Shown here: positions 33,410 through 39,776 of the stretch, piece by piece
How positions within the stretch are numbered: position 1 is the stretch's first letter
Layout: every line of letters begins with the position of its first letter
Origin: Citromicrobium sp. JLT1363
Lineage (GTDB): Bacteria; Pseudomonadota; Alphaproteobacteria; Sphingomonadales; Sphingomonadaceae
Assembly: GCF_000186705.1 (NCBI RefSeq)
Contig: NZ_AEUE01000004.1
Span: 434,001-498,000 of the forward strand
DNA length: 64,000 nt
Reading direction: 5' to 3'
Translations under genes and position numbers: made by a program
The notes under the pieces: model-generated
Seen by the model: only the letters and a program-made list of their open reading frames with translations
Told to the model about the DNA's origin: nothing
The model's database searches: none

Positions 33410-33623
33410 CTGACACAGTGTCCAGGGCCCAAAAAGCCGCTCGGCCGGGGGGTGGGCGTGGTGAGGGAGGGCAGGGCGGGCGGGCGGATGCTCATTCCTC
33501 CCCGATAGTCTCTCGCGCCCCGATTAGGAAAGCGCCGATTGCCTTCGCGATTTCGGATCGTTTGGACCCGCGCCATCGTTTGGCTAAAGGCGCGCGCAAG
33601 GATTCGAATACGGAGAACAAGCA

Positions 33624-34834
33624 TGTCGAAGGTACTGGTGATCGGGGCAGGGGGCGTGAGCTCGGTCTGCGTCCACAAGATGGCGATGAACAAGGATATC
33701 TTCAGCGAAATCCACCTTGCCAGTCGCACCAAGAGCAAGTGCGATGCGATTGCCGCATCGGTGAAGGACCGTACCGGCGTGGACGTCGCGACCTACGAGA
33801 TCGACGCCGAGGAAGTCCCCGCGATGATCAACCTGATCAGGAAGATCGGCCCTTCGCTGGTGGTCAATCTGGCGCTTCCCTACCAGGACCTGCCGATCAT
33901 GGATGCCTGTCTGGAGGCGGGCGTGGATTACCTCGACACCGCGAACTACGAGCCGAAGGACGAGGCGAAGTTCGAATATCACTGGCAGTGGGCCTATCAC
34001 GACCGCTTCAAGGAGAAGGGCCTGACCGCGCTGCTCGGCTCGGGCTTCGATCCGGGCGTGACCAGCGTGTTCACGATGTGGCTCAAGAAGCACAAGCTCA
34101 AGACCATCCGCCAGCTCGACATTCTCGACTGCAATGGCGGCGATCACGGGCAGGCCTTCGCGACCAATTTCAACCCGGAAATCAACATCCGCGAAGTGAC
34201 CGCGCCCGCGCGCCACTGGGAAAACGGCGAGTGGGTCGAAACGCCCGCAATGCAGGTGAAGACCGAGTTCGACTTCGAGGAAGTCGGGCCCAAGAACGCC
34301 TACATGATGTATCACGAGGAACTGGAAAGCCTCGCCAAGTTCGTGCCCGAGCTGGAACGTGCGCGTTTCTGGATGACCTTTGGTGACGAGTACATCAAGC
34401 ACCTGACCGTGCTGCAGGCGGTCGGCATGACCAGCATCGAACCGGTCAAGTACCAGGGCCGCGACATCATCCCGCTGCAGTTCCTCGCCGCCGTGCTGCC
34501 CAAGCCCGAAAGCCTGGGTGAGACGACCAAGGGCAAGACCAATATCGGCGTCATCGCGACCGGCGAAGCGCTGGACGGCAGCGGCGAGAAGACGTTCTAC
34601 ATCAACAATATCTGCAGCCACGAAGCCGCCTACGAGGAAACCGGCAACCAGGCGGTCAGCTACACCACCGGCGTGCCGGCGATGATCGGTTCGGCCATGA
34701 TGCTGCAGGGCAAGTGGGACGGGGAGGGCGTCTTCAACATGGAGCAGTTCGATCCCGATCCCTTCATGGACATGCTGAACCAGCACGGCCTGCCGTGGAA
34801 CGTGAAGGAGCTGGACGGGCCGGTCGGCTTCTGA
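33624..34834 (+). CDS. Carboxynorspermidine/carboxyspermidine dehydrogenase (Lys1-like)
   Basis: Saccharopine-dehydrogenase-fold enzyme of 403 residues. The N-terminal Rossmann motif is [13 protein letters not shown], followed by [14 protein letters not shown]. It condenses putrescine or diaminopropane with aspartate semialdehyde and reduces the imine to carboxy(nor)spermidine with NADPH. The identification is supported by the matching decarboxylase and an ornithine-type decarboxylase in the same gene run. It is first in the cluster, with ribosome site ggagaa before ATG 33624. Saccharopine dehydrogenase proper is less likely. Confidence 0.88.
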
Positions 34835-35366: not shown

Positions 35367-36656
35367 ATGCGCAGGCTTGCCTTCGGGTGCGTTTTGCTGG
35401 CGATGCTGGCCATGCCTCTGGCGGCGCAGGAGGCTCCGTCCGAATCCGACCAGAGTGCGACTGCCTTCGACGCGGCTGCTGCATGGGACGAGTTCGAGCA
35501 GGTGCTGCGGCGCGGGTATGCCTATATCGAGCGCGACGATATCGACGTCGAGGCGCAGCTGGACCGCTCCCGCGCGCTGGCCGCGAAGGCGCCCGACAAG
35601 GCGGCGCTGCGGCGGATCATGCACCGCACCGCACTGACCTTCATGGATCCGCACCTGATCGTCGGCCCGTTCGAGGATGACGACTACGCGATCGTGATGA
35701 CCGCCGCCGATCTCGATGCCCGGTTCGAGGATGGCAAGGCGCTGATCGTCGATGTCCGGCGCGGATCGCCTGCCTTCGATGCCGGGCTGCGGCCGGGTGA
35801 CGAGGTGCTGTCCGTGGACGGTAAACCGGCGCGCGCTGCGGCCCAGGCGCCTTTCGGAGAGGTTCTGCCCGATCCCGCCGCCGACCAGTTCGATTACGGG
35901 CTGACGCTGGCAGTCAACGGGCGGCGCAAGGGCGACCGATCGCTCGAACTGCGCAAGGCGAACGGCCAGGTCCGCACCTTCGAGCTGGGTTCGACGCGCG
36001 ACTGGGCCAATTCCCTGCGCGAGCGCGAACCTGTCGACCTGTCCTTCGTCGGGCCGCGCGGCGATGTGGCGGTGCTCTCGCCGCTCAATTCGCTCGGCAA
36101 TAACGACACCATCACCGCCTTCGACGCAGCGCTGAAGAACGCCATCGCGGCGGGGGCGCGGGCCGTCATCCTCGACATGCGCGAAACGCCGAGCGGCGGG
36201 AACACTGAGGTCGGCCGCTCGATCATCGGGCACTTCACCGATCGGGTGCGTCCCTACCAGATGCACCGCATCCCCGCGCTGGAACGCGAGTTCACCGTGC
36301 CGCGCCAGTTCGTGGAATACGTCTTCCCGCGCGAGCCTTTCTTCGGCGGCCCCGTGTTCGTGCTCCACGGCCGCTGGACCGGCAGCATGGGCGAAGGCAT
36401 CGTCATCGGGATGGATGCGGCCACCGGCGCAACCACGATCGGCTCCAACATGGGCGACCTGCTGGGCGGGCTGTGGAACGAACAGCTCGAGCTGAGCGGC
36501 GCGCGCGTCGATCTGGGTGGCGAGGCGCTGTTCCATGTCGACGGCACACCGCGCGAAGATTACGTCGCAAACGTTCCTGTAGAGCCGGCCAGTACGGCCC
36601 GCGATGGGACCGATCCGGCCCTGGCCGAAGCCCTGCGATTGTTGGAGAAGCGCTAG
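35367..36656 (+). CDS. S41-family peptidase-like exported protein with PDZ domain
   Basis: Protein of 429 residues with a signal peptide (1-20, ending PLAAQ). A PDZ-like stretch (VDVRRGSPAFDAGLRPGDEVLSVDG, residues about 128-152) precedes a tail-specific-protease fold with the nucleophile in GRWTGSMGEG (Ser340). It would act in the periplasm on unfolded or processed proteins. It lies between two spermidine genes with short gaps (17 and 2 bases), so it is probably in the same operon though unrelated in function. Confidence 0.82.
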   Translation: MRRLAFGCVLLAMLAMPLAAQEAPSESDQSATAFDAAAAWDEFEQVLRRGYAYIERDDIDVEAQLDRSRALAAKAPDKAALRRIMHRTALTFMDPHLIVGPFEDDDYAIVMTAADLDARFEDGKALIVDVRRGSPAFDAGLRPGDEVLSVDGKPARAAAQAPFGEVLPDPAADQFDYGLTLAVNGRRKGDRSLELRKANGQVRTFELGSTRDWANSLREREPVDLSFVGPRGDVAVLSPLNSLGNNDTITAFDAALKNAIAAGARAVILDMRETPSGGNTEVGRSIIGHFTDRVRPYQMHRIPALEREFTVPRQFVEYVFPREPFFGGPVFVLHGRWTGSMGEGIVIGMDAATGATTIGSNMGDLLGGLWNEQLELSGARVDLGGEALFHVDGTPREDYVANVPVEPASTARDGTDPALAEALRLLEKR

Positions 36657-36658
36657 TC

Positions 36659-37831
36659 ATGGAAACCAGAGCCGGCGACCCGGGCGCCTTCGCCCAATTC
36701 GATCTCAACCGCGTCGAGACGCCCGCCTTCGTGGTGGACGCGGCGAAGCTGCGCGAGAACTGCCGCATCCTGGCCGAAATCCGCGACGAGGCGGAGATCA
36801 AGATGCTCAGCGCGCTCAAGGCGTTCTCCATGTGGAGCACCGCGCCGATCATCGGCGAATATCTGGACGGCGTATGCACCTCCGGCCTGTGGGAAGCGCG
36901 GCTCGCCTCCGAGTTCTACGATGGCGAGATCAGCACCTATTGCGCCGCCTACAAGCCAGACGAACTGGAAGAGGTCGCGCGGCTTTCCGACCATGTGATC
37001 TTCAATTCGCCCGGCCAGATGCAGCGCGCCGCGCTGATTCTGGAGCAGGCGAAGGCCAGCGGCGGTGCCTTCGATGTTGGCCTCAGGATCAATCCGCAGG
37101 TGCCCACGGGCGAAGTGCCGCGCTACGATCCGTCGAGCCCGGGCAGCCGACTCGGCTTCCCCCTCAGCCAGCTTACCGAGGAGCATATGGAAGGCGTCGA
37201 GGGCATCCACTTCCACAACCTGTGCGAACAGGGGTTCGAGCCGCTGCATCGCACGTGGGACAAGGTGTTCGACGCGATCGAGCCGTATTTCGGCCAGCTC
37301 AAGTGGATCAACATGGGTGGCGGGCATCACATCACGCGGGCGGATTACGCACGCGAGGAGCTGATCGAGTTCCTGCGCGATGCGAAGGACGATACCGGCG
37401 CGGAAATCTACCTCGAGCCCGGGGAGGCGGTGGCGCTGGATGCGGGCATCCTTGTCGGCACGATCCTCGACACCGGAGAGAACGACGGGCCTTTCGCCAT
37501 CACCGATATCTCGGCCACCTGTCACATGCCCGATGTGATCGAAGCGCCCTATCGCCCGGCCATGCTACACGAGAAGGCGGGCGAGCCGCCGGTGCGCCTC
37601 GGCGGGCCGTCGTGCCTCGCGGGTGACGTTGTCGGCGAGTATTCGCTGCCTGTGCCGAACGAGCCGGGGCAGCGCATCGCCTTCCTCGACCAGGCGCATT
37701 ATTCGATGGTGAAGACCAACACGTTCAACGGCGTTCCGCTGCCATCGATCTGGCTGTGGGACAGCGAGACCGACGCGCTCGATTGCGTGAAGCGCTTCGG
37801 TTACGAGGAATTTCGCAATCGGCTGAGTTGA
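36659..37831 (+). CDS. nspC: Carboxynorspermidine/carboxyspermidine decarboxylase
   Basis: PLP enzyme (alanine-racemase fold) of 390 residues. The PLP lysine is Lys54 in MLSALKAFS; EGIHFHNLCEQ, NMGGGHHI and EPGEAVALDAG follow, and the active-site CHMPDVIEAPYRP is typical of NspC. It decarboxylates carboxyspermidine to spermidine (or carboxynorspermidine to norspermidine). ATG 36659 is 2 bases after the S41 gene. Together with 33624-34834 it forms the aspartate-semialdehyde route to spermidine, which needs no decarboxylated SAM. Confidence 0.93.
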   Translation: METRAGDPGAFAQFDLNRVETPAFVVDAAKLRENCRILAEIRDEAEIKMLSALKAFSMWSTAPIIGEYLDGVCTSGLWEARLASEFYDGEISTYCAAYKPDELEEVARLSDHVIFNSPGQMQRAALILEQAKASGGAFDVGLRINPQVPTGEVPRYDPSSPGSRLGFPLSQLTEEHMEGVEGIHFHNLCEQGFEPLHRTWDKVFDAIEPYFGQLKWINMGGGHHITRADYAREELIEFLRDAKDDTGAEIYLEPGEAVALDAGILVGTILDTGENDGPFAITDISATCHMPDVIEAPYRPAMLHEKAGEPPVRLGGPSCLAGDVVGEYSLPVPNEPGQRIAFLDQAHYSMVKTNTFNGVPLPSIWLWDSETDALDCVKRFGYEEFRNRLS

Positions 37832-37854: not shown

Positions 37855-38376
37855 ATGACATATTCCAGGATTGCCACGCTGGCCGCCTGCCTGGCGGCGA
37901 TGGTCCCGGCGCCCGCCGTGGCCCAGGTTTCGGGCGAGCAACCCCGGCAGGTCCAGCTGATCGACACGCTGACGCTTCCCGAGCTCGAGGCTTTCCTGGA
38001 ATCGGCGGAGTATCGCGTGCTCGCCGCCGTGGAAGAAACGAACACGCTGCGCATTCAGGGTGGCGACGATCCGGCTTTCTATGTCGAGCTGGAGCAATGC
38101 AACCGCGCCCCCGGCAATCGCTGCGCCGCGATCACCGTCATGTTCCCCGACGCCGAGCTGGCAGGCGTGTCCGAAGCGATCCTGCTCGATGCCAATCGCG
38201 GGTTCGCAGGGATCAAGACCGTCACCCATGGGCCGGAAAAGACCGTCTTCTACCGGCGCTACATCAGGCTTGAAGGGGGTGTCACGCCAGCGCACCTGCT
38301 GCGGCAGCTCGTCATTTTCGAAGTCCAGTACAAGAACGTCGCGCAGCATCTGAGAGAACGGATTTCGGCCAATTGA
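37855..38376 (+). CDS. Exported YbjN-like protein
   Basis: Protein of 173 residues with a signal peptide (1-24, ending AVAQ). IDTLTLPELEAFLESAEYRVLA is the usual start of YbjN domains, and YVELEQCNRAPGNRCAAITVMF has the paired Cys of exported members. Function is unknown. It has a strong ribosome site (ggggggag) and lies between nspC and the decarboxylase leader. Confidence 0.75.
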   Translation: MTYSRIATLAACLAAMVPAPAVAQVSGEQPRQVQLIDTLTLPELEAFLESAEYRVLAAVEETNTLRIQGGDDPAFYVELEQCNRAPGNRCAAITVMFPDAELAGVSEAILLDANRGFAGIKTVTHGPEKTVFYRRYIRLEGGVTPAHLLRQLVIFEVQYKNVAQHLRERISAN

Positions 38377-38497
38377 GCCCGTTTGGAGAGCAAGCTCGGA
38401 ACCCCTCGGCCTCGCAGCGTTGATTCACCACATGCTGCTATCTCAGATTCCGCTTGCATTCATGCGCGAAGCCTCTAGATGCGCGCTTCCGCTGCCC

Positions 38498-38571
38498 CAA
38501 GGGGACTCTAAAACCGCAAGGCAGCCCCGGATTTTCCGGTTCTGAAACTTCACCGTTTTGGGGGTCCCTTG
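38498..38571 (+). ncRNA. Structured leader of the ornithine-type decarboxylase mRNA that covers its ribosome site
   Basis: A long stem forms between 38498-38514 and 38555-38571. CAAGGGGAC pairs with GTCCCTTG (one bulged G), then, after a small internal loop, CTAAAAC pairs with GTTTTGG. The loop contains a second hairpin, CCGGA (38527-38531) with TCCGG (38535-38539). The ribosome site GGGGG (38560-38564) is in the 3' arm and the TTG start (38574) follows directly. The structure would block translation. An RNA motif called speF is known upstream of alphaproteobacterial ornithine decarboxylases; I cannot test whether this is it. Confidence 0.65.
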
Positions 38572-38573
38572 AA

Positions 38574-39776
38574 TTGGCCACTTATCCTGACGCTCGATCC
38601 GTAGTCGCAGCCCTCGCGCCCGACGAACCGGTCATTCTGAACCGTCCGCACGCTGCGGCGCGCGCCGCGCGTTTCTTCGCGGACGGCTTTCGCGGGCGTT
38701 CGCTCTATGCGGTGAAGGCAAACCCTTCGCCCGATCTCATACGTATCCTCTGGGACAACGGGATCACCCATTACGACGTCGCCTCGATTGCCGAGGTGCG
38801 GCTGGTACGTTCGATCCTTCCGGAAGCGGAGCTGTGCTTCATGCATCCGGTGAAGGCGAAGAGCGCGATCGCCGAAGCCTACCACCAGCATGGCTGCCGC
38901 ACCTTCAGCCTCGATAGCGAGGAGGAACTGGCCAAGATCGTCGACGCCTGCCGTGCGCCCGATGGAAGCCCTGCGAAGGATCTGAAGCTGCTGGTGCGCC
39001 TGCGCGTGTCCAGCGAGTTTTCCGAGCTTTCGCTGGCCAGCAAGTTCGGCGCCGACCTGATCGACGCGCCGGTGCTGCTGCAGCAGACCCGCCAGCACTG
39101 CGACTGGCTGGGCGTGTGCTTCCATGTCGGCAGCCAGGCGATGACGCCGTTCGCCTATGTCCAGGCGATCGAGCGTGCGCGCGCCGCCATTGCCTCGTCC
39201 AGCGTGGTGATCGACATCATCGACGTGGGCGGTGGCTTCCCGAGCATCTATCCGGGTATGGAGCCGCCGCCGCTGGAAGACTATTTCGACGTCATCTTCC
39301 GCGCGGCGGAATCGCTGCCGATTTCCTATTCGTCCGAACTGTGGTGCGAACCCGGCCGGGCGCTGTGCGCGGAATATTCGTCGCTTCTCGCCCGCGTGGA
39401 AAAGCGGCGCGGGACCGAGCTTTTCATCAATGACGGCGCCTATGGCGCGCTGTACGATGCGGCCCATCTGGGGTGGAAATTCCCGGTCAAGGCGCTGGAC
39501 CATGCAGACAGCGCGCCGGCAGACGATTTCGCTCTGTACGGCCCGACCTGCGACGATGCGGACTTCATGGAAGGCCCCTTCGCGCTTCCTGCGGAGATTG
39601 CGGCCGGAGACTATATCGAAGTCGGCATGCTGGGCGCCTACGGCGCGGCGATGAAGACCGATTTCAACGGCTTTGGTGCGACGCAGGCGATCGTGGTGGA
39701 GGACGAGCCTATGCTGAGCCTCTACGATGGTCGCCGTGTGCTCCCGGAAACGGACAACGTGGTCAATCTGCGCTGA
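38574..39776 (+). CDS. Ornithine (lysine/ornithine) decarboxylase, alanine-racemase fold
   Basis: PLP decarboxylase of 400 residues. Lys48 in YAVKANP forms the Schiff base; FHVGSQ, DVGGGFPSIYPG, CEPGRALCAE and the catalytic Cys in GPTCDDAD follow. It makes putrescine (perhaps cadaverine) from ornithine (lysine). Putrescine is the acceptor for the carboxyspermidine route encoded just upstream. There is no ATG near the N-terminus, so a TTG start is forced, with GGGGG 9 bases ahead. Translation is probably controlled by the structured leader. Confidence 0.93.
   Translation: MATYPDARSVVAALAPDEPVILNRPHAAARAARFFADGFRGRSLYAVKANPSPDLIRILWDNGITHYDVASIAEVRLVRSILPEAELCFMHPVKAKSAIAEAYHQHGCRTFSLDSEEELAKIVDACRAPDGSPAKDLKLLVRLRVSSEFSELSLASKFGADLIDAPVLLQQTRQHCDWLGVCFHVGSQAMTPFAYVQAIERARAAIASSSVVIDIIDVGGGFPSIYPGMEPPPLEDYFDVIFRAAESLPISYSSELWCEPGRALCAEYSSLLARVEKRRGTELFINDGAYGALYDAAHLGWKFPVKALDHADSAPADDFALYGPTCDDADFMEGPFALPAEIAAGDYIEVGMLGAYGAAMKTDFNGFGATQAIVVEDEPMLSLYDGRRVLPETDNVVNLR

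Follow-up and report, generated by a model that had tools for sequence, protein, structure and literature searches.

The window analysed here, a stretch of 64,000 nucleotides from Citromicrobium sp. JLT1363, carries a predicted ornithine decarboxylase gene that is preceded by a short structured leader and, further upstream, by genes for a carboxynorspermidine-synthase-like dehydrogenase and an nspC-like decarboxylase (Table 1). Between positions 33620 and 38376, the polyamine genes are interleaved with a gene for an S41-peptidase-like protein, whose match was below the cut-off, and with an open reading frame that we take to be macro-domain-like. A small protein encoded at 37855-38376 had no match in profile searches.

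Table 1. Features of the decarboxylase locus (positions in the window) and, in the last row, related leaders of family f8 (positions in their own loci)
Feature	Position	Strand	Basis or remark
Carboxynorspermidine-synthase-like dehydrogenase	33620..34834	+	NF043000, E 6.6e-117, below curated cut-off
nspC-like carboxy(nor)spermidine decarboxylase	36653..37831	+	TIGR01047, E 2.2e-113, below curated cut-off
Probable -10 region, directly 5' of the element	38473..38480	+	Position of TATAAT-like hexamer in relatives
P1 5' strand, GCUGCC (published pseudoknot helix)	38491..38496	+	Covariation; pairs with 38520-38525
P2 5' strand, anti-ribosome-site arm	38500..38514	+	Comparative arm pairing and window coordinates
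Loop 2 (CGCAA), highly conserved unpaired bases	38515..38519	+	Alignments of relatives
P1 3' strand, GGCAGC, within the P2 loop	38520..38525	+	Covariation
Loop 3, of variable length and sequence, with a non-conserved CCGGA/UCCGG hairpin in the window	38526..38554	+	
P2 3' strand: ribosome site and first two bases of the uORF start	38555..38570	+	
Shine-Dalgarno sequence GGGGG	38560..38564	+	
Overlapping uORF, UUG start, 11 codons (MNWPLILTLDP), UAG stop (38602-38604)	38569..38604	+	
Ornithine decarboxylase, PLP-dependent, Orn_Arg_deC_N and Orn_DAP_Arg_deC domains, UUG start	38574..39776	+	Predicted: Pfam, solved ornithine or lysine/ornithine decarboxylases
odc1-like leaders of family f8	L129:1394-1494; L130:1374-1479		

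A first-pass annotation of this DNA had proposed a stem of about 15 base pairs that hides the ribosome site of the decarboxylase gene. Its arms were correctly placed: in the window 38500-38514 and 38555-38570 form 15 pairs, including G-U pairs, with one bulged G. We drew this stem, P2, as a single helix in which 38500-38509 pair with 38561-38570 and 38510-38514 with 38555-38559. The GGGGG sequence (38560-38564) lies in the 3' arm as described, and the main UUG at 38574 follows two bases after 38571. An inner CCGGA/UCCGG hairpin had also been counted as structure of the element. It is present in the window as an insert in loop 3, but we rejected it as a part of the element, since a hairpin occupies this place in three of ten same-genus leaders (L001, L004, L007). 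The annotation missed a second helix, P1, which relatives revealed and which interlocks with P2; the fold is therefore an H-type pseudoknot. It also missed that the end of the 3' arm, 38569-38571, is the UUG start of an overlapping open reading frame (uORF) of 11 codons.

The energy of single-sequence folding does not single out the element and is not informative as proof, the 121-nt fold being ordinary (z -0.28; 74 of 200 shuffles fold as well). The duplex of one arm with the other beats chance, being reached by 13 of 1000 shuffles. The main evidence for the stem is comparative. The earlier annotation had proposed aligning the leaders of orthologous genes, and in such alignments the pairing was kept and compensating changes were seen in both helices. 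A search based on the decarboxylase provided 60 relatives, 58 of them with some match, and 30 family leaders were collected, the window counted. Common to these leaders, with some variation, are CCGCTGCCCCA(A/T)GGG.ACT..AACCGCAAGGCAGC and, after a stretch that varies, GG(G/A)GGTCCCTTGA(A/G)TTG. For detailed counts we used 84 loci, a sample of the best and weakest scorers rather than all matches.

In 27 leaders, 99.4% of the P1 cells were paired, and in two of the six pairs both sides had changed, a number reached by 11 of 500 shuffles; slid helices gave at most one P1-type pair with changes on both sides. None of the 500 shuffles matched the percentage paired or the covariation score. The 3' strand of P1 was recognised in 81 of the 84 loci, counted without making the rows distinct, and the best upstream hexamer paired at all six positions in 77, at five in three and at four in one (L108). 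Variants such as GCAGCC/GGCUGC and GUCGCC/GGCGAC were among the fully paired loci. For P2, the model-fitted alignment A3 was abandoned because the 5' arm shifts by one base between subgroups, and pairs were counted on anchored arms instead, in 82 of the 84 loci (L117 and L118 were dropped), corresponding to 71 distinct sequences. The Shine-Dalgarno sequence was GGAGG in 30 of 71 distinct relatives. Its middle base and the P2 partner formed U-A in 29, U-G in 23 and C-G in 14 and were unpaired in five of the 71 distinct sequences, in a table that uses the best-pairing register and so favours pairing. Cognate arms outpaired permuted arms in every case (0 of 5000 permutations reached them). When the variable part of P2 was permuted within ribosome-site classes, using the 68 sequences with a GGGA anchor, one of 5000 reached the real pairing; kinship among the sequences inflates all of these permutation counts. 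The anchor was absent in L015, L037 and L101. The P2 stem is real and very probably functional. By eye, loop 1, between P1 and P2, contains extra sequence, apparently a hairpin, in L016, L111, L112, L113, L114 and L116. Three other loci (L042, L094, L115) have the 5' arm AUGGG, able to pair with CCCAU or CUCAU. The best TATAAT-like hexamer begins 12 or 13 nt 5' of the element in 53 of the 79 distinct upstream regions surveyed, four loci having been set aside beforehand.

The uORF overlaps the decarboxylase gene, with the two UUG codons five bases apart, and its stop begins 28 nt past the decarboxylase start. It had 11 codons in 82 of the 84 loci, 10 in L025, where one base separates the two starts, and 22 in L117. 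Codon 12 of the uORF was a stop in 73 of 73 distinct sequences (L025, L117 and L118 left out), whereas 6.25 would be expected from the way these same genes use synonymous codons; the stop was UAG in 67, UAA in four and UGA in two (L024, L101). Where the overlapping decarboxylase codon 10 encodes Val, it was GTA in 54 of 54 cases (background 5%); where it encodes Leu, 17 of 19 were CTA or TTA (about 1% each) and the other two CTG. At decarboxylase codon 9, GGG was used for 23 of 25 Gly (background 11%), GCT for 17 of 20 Ala (8%) and TCT for 12 of 19 Ser (3%), and because of this choice residue 11 of the uORF is then Gly or Leu. The 73 sequences are related, and the codon counts are not independent. 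These results show that the uORF is under selection and that its stop codon is held. Both start codons were AUG together in L042, L094 and L115, and the uORF start was GUG in L037. At its C terminus the peptide comes in at least two forms, ..L and ..RWG. We asked whether these forms mark the triamine pathway and rejected this: ..L occurs with a deoxyhypusine-synthase-like (DHS-like) gene in G022, G124 and G134, and ..RWG with an nspC-like gene in G029 and G123. We also considered a -1 shift by which ribosomes would pass from the uORF into the frame of the decarboxylase, but by eye no slippery run was found at the uORF stop in the window.

To describe the distribution of the element we used R1, a covariance model with P1 only. 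Of 397 family genomes, 378 carried the element, representing 95 of 96 genera, with one match each apart from a single genome with two. In a sample of the class, five of 385 genomes had it, all five from the family of the window. There was no R1 match in ten leaders from the order's other families (L043, L045-L049, L051-L054), and absence there rests on these leaders, as the genomes listed for the class sample include none of those families. Rfam gave no match up to E 0.05 in 11 pieces 5' of decarboxylases in the order's other families. Some of the regions 5' of decarboxylases in those families (L043, L044, L046-L050, L052) share a short AGTCCGA-type block, which may be the end of an upstream gene. 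Ten of the 19 family genomes that had no match belong to one genus, g95; eight of these were searched with the decarboxylase, and all eight gave only distant paralogues or nothing. Four of the other nine were examined: in G086 (L117) the decarboxylase gene is kept and the leader is degenerate, G155 and G166 are cut by contig ends, and G276 is 73% complete and has no close decarboxylase gene. The decarboxylase lies downstream in 80 of the 84 loci, with its alignment starting within 80 bases in 76; the other four are about 500 bases long and were taken from the DNA preceding a decarboxylase. Nearly the whole of this one bacterial family thus has the element, and one genus lacks both it and the decarboxylase gene. 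The structure is established by covariation, the stop of the uORF is under selection, and the element is tightly linked to the decarboxylase gene. In Sphingomonas parapaucimobilis, where the annotated decarboxylase start is the second UUG, as in the window, the element is on an 880-kb replicon labelled a plasmid (L177, NZ_CP155749.1), and a deoxyhypusine synthase gene shares this replicon with the decarboxylase.

We also surveyed the triamine genes in 75 genomes. An nspC-like match of at least 227 bits was present in 41, none over the curated cut-off, with matches of about 50 bits or less left uncounted. A DHS-like gene (PF01916) was found in 29. Enzymes of this kind are thought to make homospermidine in such bacteria. 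The two genes occurred together in none of the 75, and neither was found in five, all of genus g95. In five genomes of that genus (G106, G173, G225, G265, G300), no close decarboxylase, nspC-like or DHS-like gene was found. Among 67 element-bearing family genomes tested, the nspC-like gene was present in 40 and the DHS-like gene in 27. The element is thus kept whichever triamine route is present, which points to a signal shared across the routes, such as putrescine or ornithine.

The window element is an example of the odc1 motif (uORF-25-1), which was published as a riboswitch candidate by Brewer et al. in 2021 (PMC8632094) and which we class as an orphan. That report describes 272 alphaproteobacterial examples, Sphingomonas among the hosts, with an extended stem whose right shoulder contains the ribosome site, a pseudoknot between the 5' end and the loop, two UUG codons two bases apart, a conserved 11-residue uORF without length variation and an ornithine decarboxylase downstream. 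Judged against this text description rather than the consensus nucleotides of its Fig. 3A, the window has the extended stem, whose 3' strand includes the ribosome site, the pseudoknot between 5'-terminal bases and the loop (P1), two bases between UUG 38569 and UUG 38574, and the 11-codon uORF; the ornithine decarboxylase downstream is predicted by sequence. Nothing that we tested in the window differs from odc1 as that section presents it. Relatives depart from the published form in several ways: their uORF may begin with AUG or GUG, it has 10 codons in one case, loops 1 and 3 can carry a hairpin insert, and a variant from another family has a 6-codon uORF. Conservation of the peptide and constant uORF length were already reported (PMC8632094); the codon test and the joint changes of start codons are additions, as far as the odc1 section shows. 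The first-pass reading was right in seeing translational control 5' of a decarboxylase of the polyamine pathway, a hidden ribosome site and a conserved TTG start; its suggestions of a speF variant or a new element were not supported. Rfam 15 gave no match for the odc1 element in the window, nor in seven further loci, two of which belong to family f8 and the other five to the family of the window. Annotation based on Rfam 15 would overlook such members, as those tried went unrecognised. The phrase "odc1 motif" was not found beyond Brewer et al. in the literature searched.

The variant with the shorter uORF comes from f8, another family of the order, of which 32 genomes were searched and seven loci had a close decarboxylase. 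Two of these, L129 and L130, from two genera, share CCTCTTGCCGAATCGGGCCTTCGCAACGTCGGCAAC, a diverged stretch and then GTTGTGGAGGTC(T/C)CATGAATGG; the block was absent from the other five. Their decarboxylases are 49% identical to that of the window, and a DHS-like gene follows in both. P1 reads UUGCCG/CGGCAA, and the long P2 is interrupted by one mismatch and one bulge; the uORF, of 6 codons (MNGLLP, MNGLLY), and the decarboxylase have overlapping AUG starts. A covariance model of this variant, R2, with P2 drawn with 12 pairs, gave three matches in 296 genomes of the order, the two known loci and a weak one that had no adjoining decarboxylase and was taken as chance. A pattern scan of genome contigs gave five matches, all in unrelated phyla and likewise taken as chance. 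We propose that the f8 variant may be kin to odc1.

The reading that we prefer, with a probability of about 0.66, is that this odc1 instance uses its pseudoknot to set ribosome loading and start choice, probably as polyamine feedback with a second step at the uORF peptide. The message would probably begin at or near the element and fold into the H-type pseudoknot, in which P2 would take in the ribosome site together with the larger part of the uORF start codon, leaving the main UUG just outside. The fold would then set how often ribosomes load and which UUG they use, that of the uORF or that of the decarboxylase. Sensing of a polyamine, which had been suggested at first pass, is plausible; most likely, a signal such as putrescine or ornithine would act on the RNA fold to give feedback on the first polyamine step, and the uORF peptide would add a second, sequence-dependent step. 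Which signal acts, in which direction control runs and what the peptide does are what we infer here. With the S. echinoides odc1 in E. coli, translation began at either start, with about three times more from that of the uORF, and expression from both was modest and higher in minimal medium; three changes just 5' of the pseudoknot bases led to a loss of main-ORF expression, two of them barely affecting the uORF, so conserved bases adjoining the pseudoknot are required for the main start there (PMC8632094). This modest expression counts against the feedback reading, as do the degenerate leader of G086 (L117), which keeps its gene, the 10 codons of L025, the weak P1 of L108, the GGGA anchor missing from L015, L037 and L101, and a single-sequence fold that is not unusually stable. 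The same modest expression, with no ligand found in that study (PMC8632094), would suit a device without sensing, in which the fold and a decoy start hold decarboxylase expression low and constant. We consider this unlikely: the conserved unpaired CGCAA and the pseudoknot exceed the needs of a weak start, the mutations next to the pseudoknot hit the two starts differently, and minimal medium raised both (PMC8632094).

It is possible, if somewhat improbable, that the uORF peptide is itself the sensor, with a polyamine or ornithine arresting the ribosome at the uORF stop and the pseudoknot metering loading; the footprint of a ribosome arrested there would overlap the decarboxylase start. The fixed length and stop of the uORF (11 codons in 82 of 84 loci) agree with this, as does wobble choice in the decarboxylase frame, which follows the peptide (codon 9, 73 distinct sequences), and the one degenerate RNA, L117, has also lost the fixed stop. 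However, the ..L and ..RWG peptides are not strictly tied to one triamine pathway each. A protein, for instance the decarboxylase itself, might instead bind the pseudoknot and repress translation, which would fit the finding that nearly every genome has just one element, placed before this one gene in the loci examined, but the odc1 section of Brewer et al. (PMC8632094) names no such protein, and we regard this as very improbable. That the element is a variant of the speF motif (RF00518) is hardly credible. The downstream gene is of the same kind and in the same class, but the search with the Rfam speF model that had been proposed gave no match in the window at the gathering score, nor up to E 10 in 38350-38700. 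RF00518 was found in 14 of 372 class genomes, of which 12 exceeded the cut-off; the five genomes of the window's family listed for this sample had no match. In all ten speF loci fetched, the downstream decarboxylase was only 27.8-30.4% identical to that of the window, and no double start was seen in them by eye. We rejected the speF assignment on these Rfam scans and on the comparison of fold and decarboxylase lineage, which both differ.

Returning to odc1 feedback, the comparative data narrow the question posed by this orphan: they favour a common precursor rather than a triamine as the signal, and make the role of the peptide testable. A more elaborate version, which we put forward tentatively and ourselves doubt, is that odc1 might be a two-stage polyamine feedback device, in which the pseudoknot would pick the start codon and the nascent peptide would arrest at a stop just past the decarboxylase start, the signal (putrescine or ornithine) being common to spermidine-route and homospermidine-route lineages and the design recurring as the 6-codon uORF of the other family.

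Like the window element, speF as described by Corbino et al. in 2005 (PMC1273637) is an alphaproteobacterial leader 5' of an ornithine decarboxylase for which that report gives no ligand. Unlike it, speF lies more than 150 nt before the start and is a long stem-loop with bulges, of other sequence and fold (PMC1273637). The Rfam scan of the window revealed no sequence relation to SAM-II or preQ1-II. These two riboswitches resemble the window element in being compact pseudoknots with the ribosome site in the 3' part, but have other genes downstream and are not known to have a uORF. The SpeFL leader peptide and the AdoMetDC uORF are, as here, short uORFs 5' of a polyamine-pathway gene, and peptide sensing is established for them; to our knowledge, neither has an overlapping start inside a pseudoknot, the arrangement found in the window.
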